Shown: piece after piece, positions 49,191 to 64,000 of the stretch
Layout: each line of letters begins with the position of its first letter
How positions within the stretch are numbered: the stretch's first letter is position 1
From: Arcticibacter pallidicorallinus
GTDB taxonomy: Bacteria; Bacteroidota; Bacteroidia; Sphingobacteriales; Sphingobacteriaceae
Assembly (NCBI RefSeq): GCF_003002875.1
Contig: NZ_PVTH01000001.1
Coordinates: forward strand, 496,001-560,000
Reading direction: 5' to 3'
DNA: 64,000 nucleotides
Position numbers and translations under genes: made by a program
Notes under the pieces: generated by a model
The model's input: only the letters and a program-made list of their open reading frames with translations
What the model was told of the DNA's origin: nothing
Databases searched by the model: none

Positions 49191-49499
49191 ATGGATCAGA
49201 CAGTTTTTCTATTGGTAAAAGACCCTAATAATGCTTGTCAGGATATTATCAGGCACCGGGACGGATCGCTGAGGATCAGGGTTTACTGCCTTGGAAAGGA
49301 CAAGTTTGAGCCTCATGAAGATGAGCTGCAGTTCTTCGCGAATGACGCCGGCGATCTGATGGCTTTCGAAACCTCGGATTATGACGGCGATGATCCCTTG
49401 CTGGTGATTGAAGCGATCCGGTGGTATGCCGAGTATATCGGAAATCCGAAAATGGAGATCCTCGCTGAGGATCCCCGGTTATTTGATCAGGAGCATTAG
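49191..49499 (+). CDS. Hypothetical protein
   Basis: This 102-residue acidic protein is not recognised. It shows alternating strands and a single helix near the C-terminus (LLVIEAIRWYAEYIG). There is no signal peptide or membrane segment. It lies 42 bases after trxA on the same strand, and its TAG stop shares bases with the stop of the convergent DUF6266 gene. Confidence 0.75.
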   Translation: MDQTVFLLVKDPNNACQDIIRHRDGSLRIRVYCLGKDKFEPHEDELQFFANDAGDLMAFETSDYDGDDPLLVIEAIRWYAEYIGNPKMEILAEDPRLFDQEH

Positions 49500-50495: not shown

Positions 50496-50569
50496 CGGGA
50501 TGTAGCGTAGCCCGGTATCGCGCCAGCATGGGGTGCTGGAGGTCGTGGGTTCGAATCCCGCCATCCCGA
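50496..50569 (+). tRNA. tRNA-Pro (anticodon GGG)
   Basis: The 74-base cloverleaf has acceptor arms CGGGATG (50496-50502) and CATCCCG (50562-50568) with discriminator A. The D-arm reads TAGCGTAGCCCGGTATCGCG. The anticodon stem CCAGC/GCTGG encloses the loop ATGGGGT with anticodon GGG, and the T-arm reads GTGGGTTCGAATCCCGC. CCA is not encoded. A terminator hairpin follows at 50580-50610. Confidence 0.96.
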
Positions 50570-50579
50570 CGGAGAGAAG

Positions 50580-51073: not shown

Positions 51074-51517
51074 ATGGCGGATGTACATACAGAGGCGATT
51101 CGGAGCTACAACATGTCCCGAATTCGCAGTAAGAATACAAAACCAGAAGTTCTGGTTCGGAAACAGCTACACAGAAGAGGATTCAGATTTCGAATTAATG
51201 TCAAAAATATGCTTGGCAAGCCGGATATTGTATTGCCTAAGTATAAAACTGTAATCTTCGTCAATGGTTGCTTTTGGCACGGGCATAAGGGTTGCAGATA
51301 CTTCGTAATTCCGAAGACCCGAACGGAATGGTGGCTGAATAAGATTAGTAGAAATAGTTTGAATGATGAAAAAGTTATCCAGATATTGGCAAATCAAGGA
51401 TGGTTTTCTATTGTCTTGTGGGAATGTGAACTAAAGAACGAACATCTGGAATCGACTATCGAAAGGTGCGTAACCGCTCTCGGCAGTTACACCAAACCAG
51501 TTATCCAAAATCCTTGA
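51074..51517 (+). CDS. vsr: Very short patch repair endonuclease Vsr
   Basis: Vsr nicks beside T:G mismatches that arise when 5-methylcytosine deaminates. The 147-residue protein has MSRIRSKNTKPEVLVRK, then GKPDIVLPKYKTVIFVNGCF with the catalytic Asp51, then WHGH (His69 and His71). Cys66, Cys74 and Cys118 lie at or next to the zinc-ligand positions of the E. coli enzyme. It is the first gene of the island and fits the m5C methyltransferase three genes downstream. Confidence 0.93.
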   Translation: MADVHTEAIRSYNMSRIRSKNTKPEVLVRKQLHRRGFRFRINVKNMLGKPDIVLPKYKTVIFVNGCFWHGHKGCRYFVIPKTRTEWWLNKISRNSLNDEKVIQILANQGWFSIVLWECELKNEHLESTIERCVTALGSYTKPVIQNP

Positions 51518-51633
51518 TAGTCCCTGTTTGGTTAGATGCTATTTTTGCTGATTCAAATGCTACCGAAGTAAGTATGATACACGCTTTTTCGCTATCTTTT
51601 AGAACGCGCGGCGAATCCCGGTAATAGTTAAAA

Positions 51634-52245
51634 ATGGTTGACAACGTCATTTCATTAGATCGTTGGACAATAGAAACTCTGAGTCCACAGATCTTAAGGG
51701 TTAATGATACTTGCAAAATTCCTAGTTCGTCAGACGAGTGCCTGATTAGGATAAGTCAAAATTTATTTACCTTGAAATTAACAGTAAAGCCTTGTATTAT
51801 TCCAATGAAGGTTATTATCTTAGAGGCTAACATTCGTAAAGACAGAAATATGCCTAAAGCAGGAGATAGTTTTATTGCTATTTTAAAACGACCCCATGTT
51901 GGATGGGGTACCCATCGACATACAGGAACCAGAAAATTAATAAATGGAGAAGGTTATTTGCATATTCCTGCATATATAGCAAGGAAGTTCGATATCACGA
52001 ATATTCATGGTATAGGAAATAGAGACTATACTTGTAATTCAGCAGACGGATATTTAAAGAACAGTGCTCTCATAGCCTCGGGTGGAACTGACAGATTAAG
52101 TAAATACGCTAAGAATCTTCAAGGAAAGGGGGATCTTAAAATATTAGGAGGCTGGTTTAACCATATAAATGCACAAGTTGGAGATAGAATCGAAGTGAAA
52201 TTTGTAACTCCAACGGAAATATTGCTTTCGAAAATCTCTCGATAA
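51634..52245 (+). CDS. Stand-alone protein resembling the NgoFVII/B3-like DNA-recognition domain
   Basis: The 203-residue protein has no nuclease motif. Its C-terminal part (about 75-203) reads GYLHIPAYIARKFDI, then a long loop, then KGDLKILGGWFNHINAQVGD and a final strand pair. The order and the YLxIP helix motif resemble the C-terminal domain of the PLD nuclease encoded at 54979-55947 (AYLNIPSDICRSGFF). In BfiI/NgoFVII enzymes that region is a B3-like DNA-binding fold. I infer that this gene encodes a free recognition subunit. The start is uncertain: an in-frame ATG at 51805 would drop the first 57 residues. Confidence 0.55.
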   Translation: MVDNVISLDRWTIETLSPQILRVNDTCKIPSSSDECLIRISQNLFTLKLTVKPCIIPMKVIILEANIRKDRNMPKAGDSFIAILKRPHVGWGTHRHTGTRKLINGEGYLHIPAYIARKFDITNIHGIGNRDYTCNSADGYLKNSALIASGGTDRLSKYAKNLQGKGDLKILGGWFNHINAQVGDRIEVKFVTPTEILLSKISR

Positions 52246-52297
52246 GAGAAAGCTATTGCAGTTTCATAAACGAGAATTTATGCAGTTAAAAGTCTAG

Positions 52298-53884
52298 ATG
52301 CTAGTAGAATTTAATTCAAATTTCAGGCGTAGCTGGATGTTGCCAAGAGCGATTAGGAAGATTTATCCCTGGAAGTTAGCTCAAATCTGCCAAATCTTGA
52401 ATCAAATGGCATTGAACAATTGGAGTCAGGAGATACAAAACGAATTCAGCGGATTGTTAACAGCAGGGAACCTTAAAGGCCGAAATGAGATACGAGACCC
52501 TAAAAGTGGTGGTGCAAGAACATACATTTCACAACTTGAAAGTATTGGCCTACTTTATAGAAGGCAAAAAGAATTGTTTTTTACCCTTGCGGGCAGGAGT
52601 TTGATTGATTTTGAAACCCCTCTAAAAGTTTTACAATCCCAAATATTAAATTATCAATATCCCAGTACATATAGCAACGGAAGAAATGTACGCATACATC
52701 CAGATATAAAGGTTAAACCCTTCGTGTTTGCATTAAGGCTATTAAGAAACAATAAGATTAAATATCTTACAGTAGATGAGATTGTTTTTTGTGTGGTATA
52801 TGGTCATAATTCTAAGTGTGAAGATTTTGTAGTTAGCAAGATATTAAGCTTTCGAAGCCAAAATTTGCAGAGAAATGATCTCCTAAAACTTATCGATAGG
52901 CCATTAGAAGATTTATCAACTCCAAAAGCGACGCAAAAAGACAATGCTCATAAATTATTATTGGAAGCTATAAATGTCGCAAATACATTTAAAAATTATC
53001 TCATCAGCTCTAGTCTAGCGTATGAGGATGCGACAACAAAAAACATCATTATAAGTGAAGAGTTTGCAGATATAATCGATGAAGCAATATCGAAAATGCA
53101 CAACTTTATCTCTTACTCGCCAGGCTTTGAAGAAAAATATACAAGAACGTACGGAGCTTGGAACAAGAAGAAGGATACGACAACTAACTCGGAGCGTAAG
53201 AAATTAAACAAGGGGGAATCGATCATCTCTGCACAGTTTTTTGAATATATAGGCAATGTTTTAATAACCGAACATCCGGAAGATTTTATATCAAAAATGG
53301 TAAAGGATTTTGGCTTTGACCGTGATCTTGTTCTTGATGTAATCACCCCCCTAATCCCTAAGTCTCTAACGTATTTTGAAAGCAAGTATTTAGAATTATC
53401 TAAAGGCGGGGTAACAACTGCCCGAGATTTTGAACTTGCAACTGCAGAGCTATTCAAAACACGATTAGGAATAAATGCTAAACACACAGGAAGCGCTTAC
53501 AAAAAGGGAGTTGGAGGATATTCAGATATAATACTAATTAATGAATCTGTTGGAGAATGTGCAATCGCCGACACAAAAGCAAGTAGCCATTACACACTAC
53601 CATCAATGGATTATGCTAAAATGATTAGTAATTATATACCTAATTATCAGGAACTTGAATTAGCTAAGGGGCATAGATTGGGTTTTATATTGTATGTAGC
53701 GGGAGGCGTCGGTGGGGAAATACAAACTAAATTACTTACTTTGTATCGAGAAAGCGGTTTGCCAGCGTCAGCAATAAATGCACGAACCCTTATCGAAGTA
53801 GCCCAGATAAAAGGTCTTGAAAGGGACTACCTCTGGAAAAAGCTAAAAGCAAATAAAGTACTTAAAATATCAGATTTTCATTAG
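52298..53884 (+). CDS. AlwI/PleI-like type II restriction endonuclease
   Basis: The 528-residue protein has an N-terminal recognition part that opens with WMLPRAIRKIYPWKLAQIC (13-31) and has FETPLKVLQSQIL at 105-117. A C-terminal PD-(D/E)XK nuclease contains GGYSDIILINES (Asp410) and CAIADTKASS (Asp425 and Lys427). This order is typical of the AlwI-type family of enzymes that cut or nick beside an asymmetric site. Active-site residues look complete. It ends immediately before the methyltransferase ATG, with no spacer, so expression is coupled. Confidence 0.8.
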   Translation: MLVEFNSNFRRSWMLPRAIRKIYPWKLAQICQILNQMALNNWSQEIQNEFSGLLTAGNLKGRNEIRDPKSGGARTYISQLESIGLLYRRQKELFFTLAGRSLIDFETPLKVLQSQILNYQYPSTYSNGRNVRIHPDIKVKPFVFALRLLRNNKIKYLTVDEIVFCVVYGHNSKCEDFVVSKILSFRSQNLQRNDLLKLIDRPLEDLSTPKATQKDNAHKLLLEAINVANTFKNYLISSSLAYEDATTKNIIISEEFADIIDEAISKMHNFISYSPGFEEKYTRTYGAWNKKKDTTTNSERKKLNKGESIISAQFFEYIGNVLITEHPEDFISKMVKDFGFDRDLVLDVITPLIPKSLTYFESKYLELSKGGVTTARDFELATAELFKTRLGINAKHTGSAYKKGVGGYSDIILINESVGECAIADTKASSHYTLPSMDYAKMISNYIPNYQELELAKGHRLGFILYVAGGVGGEIQTKLLTLYRESGLPASAINARTLIEVAQIKGLERDYLWKKLKANKVLKISDFH

Positions 53885-54982
53885 ATGGCAGTGTTTAGGT
53901 TAGGGGAATTATTTTCGGGACCGGGAGGTATAGCTCTTGGTGCGATTAATTCTGTGGTAAATAATGGAAGAGAAGAATATAGTATCGCTCATGAATGGGC
54001 GAATGATTACGACAAAGATACATGCGAAACATATCGACACAATATCTGCCCTGAATCTAGAACTTCAGTAATTTGTAGAGATGTAAGAAAGTTGGATATA
54101 GAAAAGTTGTCTGATATTGATGCATTAGCGTTTGGCTTCCCATGCAATGATTTTAGTATTGTAGGGGAGCAAAAGGGAATAGATGGTGTTTTTGGTCCCT
54201 TGTATTCTTATGGAGTAAGTATATTAAAGAGGTTTCAGCCAAAATGGTTCTTGGCGGAGAATGTCGGAGGCTTGAAAAATTCGAATGACGGACAGGCTTT
54301 CAAAACTATTATTAGCGAATTGGAATCAGCAGGCTATAGGGTTGTTCCACACCTTTATAAGTTCGAAAACTATGGGATTCCGCAGGCAAGACATAGGATT
54401 ATAATAATAGGCATAAGGAATGATCTAGAAATAACATTTAAAGTTCCTTTTATCCCCAACAATAAAATAGTTACGTCCCGAGAAGCAATTTTAAGTCCTC
54501 CAATAGATCCAGGTACGCCAAATAACGAGCTGACCAAGCAATCAGAAACAGTAGTTGAACGCTTGAAATTCATTAAGCCGGGCGAAAATGCCTTTACGGC
54601 AAATATGCCAGATTATTTAAGATTAAATGTAAAAGGTGCCAAAATCAGTCAAATATATAAGCGATTAGATCCTAATAAGCCAGCATATACGGTAACTGGA
54701 AGCGGTGGAGGCGGGACTCATATTTATCACTGGGAGGAAAATCGTGCTTTAACGAATCGGGAGCGTGCACGCTTACAAACTTTCCCGGATAGTTTTGAAT
54801 TCTTAGGTTCAAAAGAAAGCGTAAGAAAGCAAATTGGAATGGCTGTTCCTCCACAGGGAGCGAAGATCATAATTGAAGCAGTTCTTAAGTGTTTTGCTGG
54901 TATTGAGTATCCTTTTATAGAACCTAATATTAAATTAAGCGCAAAAACTTTAAAGACGCCAGAAGTCTTAGTGGAAGTATGA
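53885..54982 (+). CDS. DNA (cytosine-5-)-methyltransferase
   Basis: The 365-residue protein has the m5C methyltransferase motifs in order: I, LGELFSGPGGIALGA (6-20); IV, GFPCNDFS with the catalytic Cys87; VI, AENVGG (124-129); VIII, QARHR (167-171); IX, RERARLQTFPDSF; and X, GMAVPPQGAKII. The usual motif X is GNAVP; here the Asn is Met. The target-recognition stretch between VIII and IX is short. It should protect the site cut by one or both neighbouring nucleases and creates the substrate of Vsr. Its stop overlaps the next start as ATGA. Confidence 0.93.
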   Translation: MAVFRLGELFSGPGGIALGAINSVVNNGREEYSIAHEWANDYDKDTCETYRHNICPESRTSVICRDVRKLDIEKLSDIDALAFGFPCNDFSIVGEQKGIDGVFGPLYSYGVSILKRFQPKWFLAENVGGLKNSNDGQAFKTIISELESAGYRVVPHLYKFENYGIPQARHRIIIIGIRNDLEITFKVPFIPNNKIVTSREAILSPPIDPGTPNNELTKQSETVVERLKFIKPGENAFTANMPDYLRLNVKGAKISQIYKRLDPNKPAYTVTGSGGGGTHIYHWEENRALTNRERARLQTFPDSFEFLGSKESVRKQIGMAVPPQGAKIIIEAVLKCFAGIEYPFIEPNIKLSAKTLKTPEVLVEV

Positions 54983-55947
54983 TAACGGGCCAAGGAGAGC
55001 TATTTGACGAAATTTTGGCTAACCCAGTCATTGAAGGAGCGGATAAGCTACTTATTGTGACCGGATACGCCTCAGCAAATATGGTAGCCAGACATGTAGA
55101 TTATGTAAGAAAAATACTTAAAAGGAGCTTCCGTCTTGAGCTTATTATCGGAATGGCGGTCAAGGATGGAATTGAGTTGAAAAACCATAAATCTTTCATT
55201 CAACTTCAAGAAAGCAAGGATTTAGATTTCGAGTGTAACTACATTATCAATCCTCCTGCTATCCATTCAAAGGTTTACACCTGGCTAAAAAAAGAAGAGC
55301 CTTATAAAAGCTTTACAGGATCTGCTAATTATACTCAAAATGCATTTAGTACTTCGCAGAGAGAGGCCGTTGCTCCGAGTTGTCCCAAGTTGGCGAGTGA
55401 TTATTTTCAAAATCTTTTGCGCGAGAGTATTAACTGCAATGACGACTTCGACATTATCAGTTCCCACATTGATTTTTATGAGTCTAAACGAATAATTAAA
55501 GAGGTACATAAGTATGATGATACTAACTTGTTAAGTTATGAACTTGAAAAGGTTACACTCACACTTTTAGATAGATCTACTGGTGAAGTTCCTAATCGTT
55601 CAGGTTTAAATTGGGGACAACGTCCTGAATATAATAGGGATCCCAATCAAGCATATTTAAACATTCCATCAGATATTTGTAGATCGGGATTTTTTCCAGA
55701 CTTAAGAAACGTATTTACAATATTAACAGATGACGACAAACAGTTAATATGTGTCAGGGCACAACAAAATGGGAAGGGACTACATACAACTCTTAACAAT
55801 GCACTAATGGGTCAATATTTCAGGTTTAGGCTATGCCTTGGGAACGGTAAAAAGATAACATTGAAGGACCTACTCAAATATGGGCGGACCGATGTAGATA
55901 TATATAAAATTGATGAGGAAACTTACCATTTGGATTTCTCCGTATAA
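54979..55947 (+). CDS. NgoFVII-type PLD-family restriction endonuclease
   Basis: The 322-residue protein has a phospholipase-D nuclease domain with IHSKVYTWL (His96 and Lys98) and GSANYTQ (114-120). A C-terminal DNA-recognition domain follows (about 205-322), containing AYLNIPSDICRSGFFPDLRN, NGKGLHTTLNNALMGQYFR and YGRTDVDIYKIDEETYHLDF. This is the NgoFVII/BfiI architecture: a dimeric, metal-independent nuclease with B3-like DNA binding. It is the second nuclease of the locus and overlaps the methyltransferase by 4 bases. Confidence 0.9.
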   Translation: MITGQGELFDEILANPVIEGADKLLIVTGYASANMVARHVDYVRKILKRSFRLELIIGMAVKDGIELKNHKSFIQLQESKDLDFECNYIINPPAIHSKVYTWLKKEEPYKSFTGSANYTQNAFSTSQREAVAPSCPKLASDYFQNLLRESINCNDDFDIISSHIDFYESKRIIKEVHKYDDTNLLSYELEKVTLTLLDRSTGEVPNRSGLNWGQRPEYNRDPNQAYLNIPSDICRSGFFPDLRNVFTILTDDDKQLICVRAQQNGKGLHTTLNNALMGQYFRFRLCLGNGKKITLKDLLKYGRTDVDIYKIDEETYHLDFSV

Positions 55948-55953
55948 GGAGTC

Positions 55954-56463
55954 CTAGTCTCTAATTAAAGTTAAAAAATCAAAATTTTTCAGATGTCCGA
56001 AATATAGTGCCTCAAACATTGGCGAGATACTAGAAGAATCTATATTAGCAATAAGAGTCTCTTGGGGGGCAAATCCAAGGATCTGAACGTCTCTACTATC
56101 GACATTAATAAAGGCAACAATACCAATATCATAATTGCCTCTCGGAACAGTTGGGTAAGAATCTAAGCTTGCAGTAATTAATTCCACAGAACGTCCGTTG
56201 TAGGTAAATTGTGGTTTATAATTCTTACTGTCAACTTTCAGCGTCCAATCAATGGTGGCCTGATTCAAAAGTTTTTCCAGGGCTACTTCTGCATAAGACC
56301 GAATCAAAAAAGAGTGGTAAAATTTTTGGCCCTCGAAACGATCTCTTAACTTATTCATGTCAGTAACATTTAGATGCTTCAAGGCAATGTGCTGTAGTTT
56401 CTGATAGATCTTATATTCGACTTTAAACCTAATAGCCGGTTTACCAATTAATTCTTTTATCAT
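55954..56463 (-). CDS. Unknown protein beside the restriction-modification genes
   Basis: I do not recognise this 169-residue protein. Its middle part reads like a degenerate PD-(D/E)XK core: a helix with Glu (SYAEVALEKLLNQ), then FTYNGRSVELITASLD and YDIGIVAFINVDSRDVQILGF. It lacks a visible DxK pair (VELIT instead of VEVKT). It converges on the PLD nuclease gene with 6 bases between stops. It may be a nuclease-like domain or a specificity factor; both are guesses. Confidence 0.6.
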   Translation of the reverse strand: MIKELIGKPAIRFKVEYKIYQKLQHIALKHLNVTDMNKLRDRFEGQKFYHSFLIRSYAEVALEKLLNQATIDWTLKVDSKNYKPQFTYNGRSVELITASLDSYPTVPRGNYDIGIVAFINVDSRDVQILGFAPQETLIANIDSSSISPMFEALYFGHLKNFDFLTLIRD

Positions 56464-56558: not shown

Positions 56559-57401
56559 CTAAAAGTGCCCCTTATATTGCACAGCCTCTATCGAGCAAAA
56601 TTTGTCATAGCGACCTCGAACTCGAAACATTTTAGGACTATCTGAAAAGTTGAATATACGATACAAGTGAAAATTTTCGCTGTTAATTATCGAGAATTTA
56701 TATTCATTAGAGGAAAAGAAAAAAGGCGAATATATTCCGAGTTTTGTTGTTTTTACTTCTATATACTTATCAGTTCCGTCGAGATTCGATGAAAGTATAT
56801 CGAAACCTGCGCCATCTCCGAATTTATCTGATACCCACTCGACCTTTTTTGCTAGGGCCTCCTTTCCAGCCATAATTAATAGATTTCTTTCGAATTCCAA
56901 TGCCAGTTCCTCTCCTTTTTTCCCTAGCGTAATGTTGTGTTGCTCTTTTTCCAAATAATTTATTTTGCCAGAAATTTTGAAGGAAGGGGAAGGTTCCATA
57001 AGTACGCTTTTATTCTTTTCGGGAGGGTTTACTAATAATTCGTCAAATTGTACAACGGAGGGCGAGACTAAATCGGCATTGTTACAGAATGAGTCGAGGA
57101 CTTTCTGGATTTCTGGATTTAGTAAGATATATCGTTGAATGGAAGGGATCAGCTTGCTTCTCTGAGCCTTACTCAAAGGTTTATACCCCTTGATATAAGG
57201 AAGGCCGAGTTCTATATTGACTGCACTAATATTTTGGTGTTTTCGTTCTATAGATAAATCGGGGCGATCGTTTAACAGAGGCTTTAAGTGTCGTCGATGT
57301 TCCGATTTATTGTAAGAATTCCCATTTAGTTCCTCAATCAGCATGGAGAAATAATCGTTGACAATCAAGTCAACCTCGTTATCAGACCAATTTTCTCTCA
57401 T
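56559..57401 (-). CDS. DUF3883 (NOV-C) domain protein
   Basis: The 280-residue protein has an unknown N-terminal half and a C-terminal DUF3883 domain (about 158-280) with GEELALEFERNLL, GAGFDILSSNLDGTDKYIEV, KTTKLGIYSPFFFSSNEY and FHLYRIFNF. The Asp201...Glu215-x-Lys217 arrangement is that of a PD-(D/E)XK nuclease. DUF3883 proteins are common in defence islands next to restriction systems. It is on the strand opposite the R-M genes and follows the same A+T-rich composition. Confidence 0.85.
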   Translation of the reverse strand: MRENWSDNEVDLIVNDYFSMLIEELNGNSYNKSEHRRHLKPLLNDRPDLSIERKHQNISAVNIELGLPYIKGYKPLSKAQRSKLIPSIQRYILLNPEIQKVLDSFCNNADLVSPSVVQFDELLVNPPEKNKSVLMEPSPSFKISGKINYLEKEQHNITLGKKGEELALEFERNLLIMAGKEALAKKVEWVSDKFGDGAGFDILSSNLDGTDKYIEVKTTKLGIYSPFFFSSNEYKFSIINSENFHLYRIFNFSDSPKMFRVRGRYDKFCSIEAVQYKGHF

Positions 57402-57775: not shown

Positions 57776-58112
57776 GTGCCTTTTTCTTATCTTAGAACCT
57801 ACATGGGGATTCCTGAAACACTACGTAAATACCTTCACAAACTAACCCGTCTCAACCGTGCTCCAACCGTCTATGGTAAAGCTCCTCATAAACCGGTTCT
57901 CTTGATATCGATTATAGATTTATTCGAAAAAGGAATGATTACCGCAAATCGGATATTCGTGAACACAGAATTGGTTGCTACATTCCGGGAGAACTGGGAC
58001 CTCCTGGTGAATACTGCTCACCAGTCCGACTTTACTCAGCCTTTCTATTATCTGCAGAGCGAGAGAGTTGAAGGAGAGCAGATATGGTTCTTGCAGCCAA
58101 GAATAGGATGGA
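57776..58112 (+). pseudogene. N-terminal fragment of an SBD/HNH-type restriction endonuclease
   Basis: The frame begins with IPETLRKYLHKLTRLNRAPT followed by YGKAPHKPVLLISIIDLFEK and FYYLQSERVEGEQIWFLQP. This is the N-terminal sulfur-binding-like domain found in restriction enzymes annotated as phosphorothioated-DNA-binding HNH endonucleases. The domain is cut off after about 112 residues; the remaining codons to 58174 read out of frame into another gene. The HNH nuclease half is missing, so it is not functional as such. Confidence 0.65.
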
Positions 58113-58292
58113 ATGGGAAAAAACATCGGGCATTGGGGAGGACGGTTGATTTGGCAGCTTGGAGATGTTGGTGATTTGATCATCTGTTGGAAATCACTAC
58201 CAAATGAGGATCCGCGCCTGGTAGAGAAATCTTTGATAAGAAGTTTCACCTCCCAGTTTGTTAAGCGCCCCTTTGCAAAGTCGGAGACTTAG
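58113..58292 (+). pseudogene. C-terminal fragment of a GIY-YIG family protein
   Basis: In another frame the sequence reads HWGGRLIWQLGDVGDLIICW, then KSLPNEDPRLVEKSLIRSF and a VKRPFA end, closing at TAG 58290-58292. The pattern HWGG...IW.L.D...L...WK.LP..DPR.VEK.LI..F...KRPFAN is the C-terminus of GIY-YIG proteins as found in this phylum. The GIY-YIG active site is not present; only this tail survives, fused behind the SBD fragment. Confidence 0.6.
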
Positions 58293-63981: not shown

Positions 63982-64000
63982 CTATTAATATAAAAATTCC

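Follow-up and report, generated by a model that had tools for sequence, protein, structure and literature searches.

A restriction-modification island of Arcticibacter pallidicorallinus in which two unrelated nucleases accompany a single C5-cytosine methyltransferase

In the genome of Arcticibacter pallidicorallinus (Bacteroidota), a stretch of 64,000 nucleotides (contig NZ_PVTH01000001.1, positions 496,001 to 560,000; in the following called the window) harbours a restriction-modification (R-M) island at window positions 51074-55947, in which a single C5-cytosine DNA methyltransferase (MTase) is accompanied by an AlwI-like nuclease, an NgoFVII-type nuclease of the phospholipase D (PLD) type, a Vsr mismatch endonuclease and a small solo B3-domain protein. 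With a probability of roughly 60%, the island might be read as a probably mobile 5-methylcytosine (m5C) R-M system in which the one MTase shields its host from two nucleases that are unrelated in both fold and chemistry. In such a system the MTase would methylate a quasi-palindromic site on both strands, the AlwI-like enzyme would read the unmethylated site via its N.BspD6I-like domain and cut nearby with its metal-dependent FokI-like domain, and the PLD enzyme would read the same site via its B3 domain and cut nearby with its H-x-K site, using no ATPase partner. Methylation would block both nucleases, and Vsr would repair the T:G mismatches that arise from deaminated m5C.

As predicted originally from the letters of the window alone, five open reading frames (ORFs) lie in the same direction on the plus strand (Table 1), the AlwI-like gene being joined to the MTase gene with a gap of 0 and the MTase gene to the PLD gene by an overlap of 4 bases, and family profiles agree with an R-M island comprising two unrelated nucleases, one m5C MTase and Vsr. 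Vsr scores 137.9 bits against TIGR00632 (cut-off 97.85) and 109.7 bits against its Pfam profile, the match of the MTase to DNA_methylase lies above the Pfam cut-off, and so do both matches of the PLD nuclease, to RE_NgoFVII (129.9 bits) and RE_NgoFVII_C (121.7 bits). The residues H96-x-K98, N117 and E129 of the PLD nuclease are invariant in all seven aligned rows, the window's included, and H-x-K, N and E are the catalytic residues described for BfiI (PMC4081073). The AlwI-like protein reaches 20 bits with the Pfam AlwI profile, under the cut-off of 23.1; its Priestia homologue exceeds this cut-off (41.1 bits), and a relative in genome G316 matches the FokI domain PF09254 above cut-off (25.3 bits). 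Residues 74-274 match N.BspD6I by sequence (phmmer, E = 2.6e-6), and the AlphaFold model (predicted local distance difference test, pLDDT, 75.5) matches N.BspD6I in Foldseek with E = 1.1e-14 at a template modelling (TM) score of only 0.42, FokI with E = 3.8e-10 (TM 0.27) and the recognition domain of BpuJI with E = 3.3e-5, the low TM-scores probably being due to domain placement. D425 and K427 are invariant in 12/12 rows, and D410, D425 and K427 are kept in 5/5 rows of a separate alignment. Sequence and model together indicate that this protein consists of an N.BspD6I-like recognition domain and a FokI-like cleavage domain.

With respect to the distribution of these genes among 395 genomes of the same phylum, AlwI-like matches were found in eight and a close MTase in 13. 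The AlwI-like nuclease, the MTase and this type of PLD nuclease form a unit, occurring together in four loci, namely in the window, in Pedobacter petrophilus (82%, 89% and 82% identity, respectively), in Sphingobacterium shayense (66%, 83% and 61%) and in G316 (about 30%, 54% and 36%). The gene order of the window is also that of Pedobacter and Sphingobacterium, and in G316 the genes are rearranged, lying on both strands and in a different order. Weighing against a simple picture, the MTase adjoins the AlwI-like gene in only four of the eight genomes (G000, G316, G187 and G128), and no such MTase was found in the stretches examined around the AlwI-like genes of G175, G153 and G362; the stretches covered are those of all eight genomes but G436. 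Scans of viral sequences with the AlwI-like protein alone, the PLD nuclease alone or a B3 alignment yielded no relative.

For a wider comparison, loci of the MTase subfamily were drawn from plasmids, phages, genomes and 50 viral contigs. Of 78 MTases (28 hand-chosen and 50 from viral contigs; L035 with an interrupted MTase as well as L038, L045, L051, L056, L058, L074 and L095-L097 being left out), 73 remained after the removal of near-duplicates, and 68 after five had been set apart as the NgoAVII clade. The recognised nuclease partners of these 68 were AlwI-like only in 16 cases, this PLD type only in ten, the ATP-dependent PLD type in 11, both PLD types in five, AlwI-like plus PLD in four, AlwI-like plus Z1/DUF4420 in two, Z1/DUF4420 in two and an McrB-like gene in one, some of the PLD matches being in part short open frames (L139, L144-L146). 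For the remaining 17, no nuclease was recognised up to a distance of 7 kb at most; several of these contigs end close to the MTase, and the rows therefore do not show that the MTase is solitary. On a tree built from 29 MTases, several of them on long branches, the nuclease label changes ten times, where six is the minimum possible and shuffled labels give a mean of 17.4. Since the changes exceed the minimum and the labels are nevertheless more clustered than shuffled ones, the tree indicates that the partners have been exchanged, though not freely. At L096:3849-9332 the same MTase subfamily adjoins an McrBC-like pair (AAA_5; DUF2357/PDDEXK_7) and Vsr, and in six viral or faecal contigs (L073, L074, L114, L116, L118 and L157) two PLD nucleases of different branches and a Z1 ATPase lie beside one MTase, which would represent another two-nuclease arrangement.

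The occurrence of each nuclease type on its own also bears on the idea of a division of labour, according to which the AlwI-like enzyme is a strand-specific nickase and the PLD enzyme cuts the other strand, so that a double-strand break would require the two together. Among solved folds, that of the nickase N.BspD6I is indeed the closest, an enzyme that cleaves both strands only with the help of a second subunit (PMC4081073), and the tight gene junctions described above, with an order kept in Pedobacter and Sphingobacterium, would suit such a partnership. However, the AlwI-like or the PLD nuclease is the sole recognised nuclease beside the same MTase in 16/68 and 10/68 cases, respectively, the G316 genes lie on different strands, and PLD enzymes such as BfiI act as dimers that cleave both DNA strands (PMC4081073), which makes a shared double-strand break an unlikely account. 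No BspD6I-like small subunit was recognised at the island of the window.

The specificity of C5 MTases is set by the region between motifs VIII and IX. In the core of this region (residues 245-300), MTases with AlwI-like partners only and those with PLD partners only share an identity of 0.81 (160 pairs), as compared with 0.82 within either class, and the core is 0.58 identical to that of the NgoAVII clade; for the catalytic part the corresponding values are 0.57 between the classes and 0.61 (AlwI-only) and 0.60 (PLD-only) within them. On balance, these values suggest that the specificity of the MTase is independent of its nuclease partner. Two points weigh against this: part of the conserved motif IX falls within the compared core, and the identity to the window is more variable across residues 206-244 (0.31-0.79 in other rows), a segment that may also contact the target, so that a difference in specificity could hide there. 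To the question raised in the original prediction, whether both nucleases share one site, the unchanged recognition core thus gives an indirect but affirmative answer, and most likely both would cut the unmethylated form of one site. That the mark of the MTase would block both is suggested because either type can be found beside it with no other recognised nuclease; for the same reason the further suggestion that one of them needs the methylated base found no support, as such an enzyme would cut its own host.

Two separate recognition sequences, one per nuclease and both protected by the MTase through, for instance, nested sites or relaxed specificity, would fit with the unrelated recognition domains of the two enzymes (B3 as opposed to BpuJI/N.BspD6I-like) and with the variation of MTase residues 206-244. 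Against the core being equally alike within and between the nuclease classes, however, this appears rather improbable.

The prediction had also held that such enzymes usually need two MTases, one per strand. BfiI has two N4-cytosine MTases, and those of AlwI are of the adenine type. For AlwI, which is guarded by two fused MTases (PMC4081073), as for BfiI, the statement is correct, but it fails as a general rule: CglI and NgoAVII have one C5 MTase each (PMC4267653), and for BbvI and MlyI one MTase is reported to give sufficient protection, their sites being quasi-palindromic, in the case of BbvI GCWGC, so that a nuclease with an asymmetric site can be guarded by a single MTase (PMC4081073). A requirement for two MTases is contradicted by these systems and by the relatives compared here.

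As to the identity of the site, GCWGC is the best guess and, by a narrow measure, the probable one. M.CglI and M.NgoAVII recognise GCSGC, and GCWGC is recognised by BceSIV of Bacillus cereus ATCC 10987, a PLD nuclease with an ATPase (PMC4267653), in the same strain in which BCE_0365 is listed as an m5C MTase for GCWGC (PMC3459991); this protein may be M.BceSIV and may belong to the present subfamily. In the 600 bp upstream of the MTases (50 dissimilar regions), the enrichment among 32 quasi-palindromic pentamers is strongest for GCWGC (64 versus 41.3, z = 3.9), as compared with z = 0.6 for GCSGC. Pairs of GCWGC within 60 bp were found in 23/70 regions (near-duplicates included) versus 6.0 expected from shuffles, and the pattern GCWGC-N6-GCWGC-N26/27-GCWGC, discovered in the same data in which it was counted, occurs in 15 loci (13 distinct; L073:89, L114:6567, L115:2006, L126:6566, L162:6563 and ten further loci), always upstream of the MTase or of a fusion of a helix-turn-helix (HTH) protein with the MTase. 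By eye, the last copy mostly lies between boxes resembling TTGACA and TATACT, and through the triple the MTase might possibly be controlled by its own site in a methylation-sensitive manner.

Several observations weigh against GCWGC. Over the 250 bp immediately upstream of the MTase it ranks second (z = 1.9) after TAWTA, and within the MTase gene it is outside the four most enriched pentamers. The HTH protein, encoded ahead of the MTase or fused to it, may instead use the spaced element as its operator; Pfam confirmed the HTH assignment in 3/3 loci tested (L073, L126 and L129). In the island of the window itself, where only about two copies would be expected in the genes, GCWGC is absent, and the promoter evidence therefore comes from relatives. 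A depletion of GCWGC in gene bodies was rejected as proof, as the z-score of -3.4 in the genes of the system is accompanied by -2.3 in control ORFs, and other motifs are more depleted.

Cleavage by R.CglI and R.NgoAVII is described as occurring only together with a Z1/DEAD ATPase (PMC4267653). The window's PLD nuclease shares with these R proteins the PLD and B3 domains, but membership in the CglI/NgoAVII group was rejected, as no Z1 ATPase was found in its genome; in fact, Z1 (PF10593) was found in none of the eight genomes with PF09565 matches, this genome included, and in a control search among 14 genomes only Corynebacterium glutamicum was positive. The identity between the window's PLD nuclease and the Z1-linked ones is at most 24% where BLAST aligns them (E 1e-3), and both branches occur side by side in several viral contigs; by sequence, the former constitutes a branch distinct from the Z1-linked one. 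Most likely, enzymes of this branch would work like BfiI and without ATP. Against this stands the PLD nuclease of G218, which is nearer to R.NgoAVII (34%) in a genome likewise lacking a recognised Z1, so that a missing Z1 alone does not mark this branch, and it is on the absence of Z1 that the supposed independence of ATP is founded.

Compared with Pedobacter, dN (non-synonymous divergence) is 0.106 for the AlwI-like gene, 0.059 for the MTase gene and 0.101 for the PLD gene, and dN/dS is about 0.05 for both nucleases. With synonymous sites near saturation, both nucleases are under purifying selection and neither is decaying. Inactivating changes in relatives, which would have spoken against two functional nucleases, were looked for in L046, L047 and L036: the frames are open, D410, D425 and K427 of the AlwI-like protein are kept, and so is the H-x-K motif of the PLD nuclease (L036 aligned; L046 and L047 by eye). 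These observations bear on the possibility that transfer merely joined the genes and that one nuclease is silent or redundant, the pairing having no function of its own. In favour of such a passenger are the swapping of nuclease modules beside the MTase, with the ten label changes on the tree, and the presence of broken nucleases in some relatives, the AlwI gene of Bacillus carboniphilus being in pieces and the PLD matches in L139 and L144-L146 being partly short frames. Given the selection on both genes, the open frames and intact active sites of three relatives that also have both nucleases and the persistence of the pair in four loci down to 30-54% identity, however, a passenger appears distinctly improbable.

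The protein described originally as recognition-like turned out to be a solo B3 domain of the kind that is fused to the PLD nuclease. Its match to PF20731 is sub-threshold (E = 0.001), but profile-profile comparison with the B3 domains of the PLD nucleases themselves gives 94.6%, as opposed to 0.1 and 0.3% for two unrelated controls. The nominal ORF was drawn at 51634-52245; because the homologues in Pedobacter and Priestia begin at the residue corresponding to 51850, its first 72 codons are probably not translated. The gene adjoins this MTase in 12 loci (the window, L043, L046, L047, L074, L133, L134, L142, L143, L151, L152 and L162), whatever nuclease is present. A first tally by hand had seemed to confine it to loci with two nuclease modules (5/8 versus 0/21), a link that was undone by viral contigs with one module (L133, L134 and L143) and by L142, L151 and L152, in which no recognised nuclease lies beside it. 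The simplest idea is that the solo B3 protein would bind the site of the MTase, probably as a regulator or competitor.

The island had been taken to end with the last of the five genes. While these are all present, this end could not be upheld, as the conserved gene orf6 on the opposite strand (55954-56463) also belongs to the unit: homologues with 72.8% and 50% identity lie beside the same genes in Pedobacter and Sphingobacterium, and orf6 is near a C5 MTase in all seven loci read (the window, L046, L047, L059, L102, L103 and L104), four of the MTases being just 27-42% identical to that of the window. Of 151 genomes of the window's family, four contain it, and a weak match was also seen in one viral contig (L064). 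Neither Pfam nor, up to E 10, the sequences of the PDB gave a match to it. Its model (pLDDT 69) has NhoI as top Foldseek match (E = 8.1e-3, probability 0.95, TM 0.41), followed by HincII and, lower in the list, Eco15I, with no fold match at E 0.001 or better, and by eye four sequences show no conserved lysine of a (D/E)XK or QXK motif; the fold thus leans weakly towards PD-(D/E)XK enzymes with a motif that is not intact. As a counterpart of the small subunit of BspD6I it was rejected, this subunit being absent from the best 50 of 344 fold matches. The small protein beside the AlwI genes of Bacillota was likewise rejected as a counterpart of orf6 or of the B3 protein (profile-profile 0.1 and 0.3%).

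The resemblance to NhoI might suggest a second, methyl-dependent line of defence, in which methylated sites are the target of orf6 or of one of the nucleases and both unmethylated and over-methylated DNA is attacked, all the more as BisI-family enzymes are reported to cut GCNGC carrying several m5C (PMC11347163, PMC4926085) and an enzyme needing three or four could spare a host with one m5C per strand; with so weak a model, no motif lysine, orf6 also accompanying distant C5 MTases and the self-toxicity of a nuclease needing a methyl group at the MTase's own site, this is highly improbable.

The coordinates of the island and its neighbours are collected in Table 1.

Table 1. Genes and regions of the R-M island and adjoining features (window positions).
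Feature	Position	Strand	Basis
Vsr mismatch endonuclease, 147 aa	51074-51517	+	TIGR00632, Pfam Vsr
Solo B3 DNA-binding domain protein, 131 aa (probable start)	51850-52245	+	Homologue starts; profile-profile comparison with the B3 domains of PLD nucleases
AlwI/N.BspD6I-type nuclease, 528 aa, C-terminal FokI-like PD-(D/E)XK domain	52298-53884	+	phmmer, AlphaFold model
C5-cytosine DNA methyltransferase (MTase), 365 aa	53885-54982	+	PF00145, 253.1 bits
MTase recognition-region core, residues 245-300, the last ~15 being motif IX	54617-54784	+	Cross-system comparison
NgoFVII-type nuclease, PLD and B3 domains, 322 aa	54979-55947	+	PF09565, PF20731
orf6, 169 aa, conserved companion of C5 MTases	55954-56463	-	Homologues in the same gene neighbourhoods
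NOV_C-domain protein, doubtful member of the unit	56559-57401	-	PF13020, 68.2 bits

The NOV_C-domain protein matches the candidate PDC-S36 of PADLOC (E = 1.5e-93), and a homologue with 37% identity adjoins the G316 system; no match was found at L046 or L047. At L035:10645-11412 an ORF with a NOV_C domain interrupts the coding region of the MTase between residues 237 and 265. A protein of 392 amino acids at L103:2185-3363, which adjoins orf6 and a C5 MTase, has a C-terminal B3 domain of the NgoFVII type (38.5 bits) and no PLD match, and is perhaps another B3-guided nuclease. Further downstream in the window, an ORF of 132 amino acids (57776-58174, plus strand) weakly resembles, below the threshold (E = 0.061), the first part of a model of 284 positions for a phosphorothioate-dependent nuclease and is perhaps the remnant of a longer gene.

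In line with the earlier suggestion of a transfer, the island is rich in A + T, with a G + C content of 0.373 (51074-55947) against a mean of 0.467 elsewhere in the window (standard deviation 0.026 and minimum 0.388 over 100 overlapping windows of the same length), and the stretch up to about 60.5 kb is also low in G + C. The AlwI-like gene was not found in any of the five genomes of the same genus that were searched, and the copies in Pedobacter and Sphingobacterium adjoin, by eye, apparent ParA, mobilisation and conjugation genes. The island is probably mobile. A tRNA-Pro gene (GGG) at 50496-50570 (plus strand), shortly before it, is a possible integration point; no direct repeat of at least 18 bp pairing it with a downstream copy was found up to position 64000. 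A clean empty site could not be established either, as the matches of the left flank end near 49480, well before tRNA-Pro, in 5/5 sister genomes, and the two inspected further have a differing gene order beyond the flank, with no island gene matched.

When compared to known systems, the island is a real two-nuclease variant of m5C restriction-modification. With CglI, NgoAVII and BceSIV it shares the PLD and B3 nuclease and the single C5 MTase, their sites being the quasi-palindromic GCSGC or GCWGC (PMC4267653), but it differs by lacking a recognised Z1/DEAD ATPase and by containing, in addition, a further nuclease of unrelated type as well as a solo B3 protein. BfiI has the same PLD residues, a B3 domain and no ATPase, but its site is ACTGGG (PMC4267653). 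The likeness to AlwI, N.BspD6I and BstNBI concerns the combination of a recognition domain with a FokI-like cleavage domain, whereas one C5 MTase takes the place of the two fused MTases of AlwI. LlaJI and the helicase/GHKL-ATPase systems of Iyer et al. (2008) also combine a C5 MTase, Vsr and varied nucleases, and some of the latter carry VP1/RAV (plant B3-type) DNA-binding domains (PMC2292703); however, no helicase or GHKL ATPase was recognised in the island, and LlaJI is described as having two C5 MTases and two cooperating R subunits (PMC11779793). A pair of AlwI-type and PLD nucleases sharing one MTase was not found described in a literature search of limited coverage.

It is tempting to go further and to regard one mark, probably GCWGC, as a shared password for AlwI-like, ATP-free PLD, PLD plus Z1, Z1 plus DUF4420 plus paraMORC and McrBC-like nucleases, which would be swapped or stacked beside one C5 MTase with a frozen core in Bacteroidota, Bacillota and viral contigs, the solo B3 protein reading the unmethylated site, sensing the marking of the host and licensing the nucleases; this is a possible but tentative extension that may well prove wrong.

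The usual picture of restriction is that of one nuclease matched to its own MTase. Here, the recognition core of the MTase stays fixed, and next to it nucleases of unrelated fold replace one another or occur in pairs. Should the two nucleases share a site, one mark would be backed by two chemistries, of which the first depends on metal and the second probably does not, and a phage able to inhibit one nuclease would still face the other. The relatives offer a natural set for comparing ATP-free with ATP-dependent PLD enzymes, possibly at the same site, and make it easy to ask which part a lone recognition domain plays in restriction.

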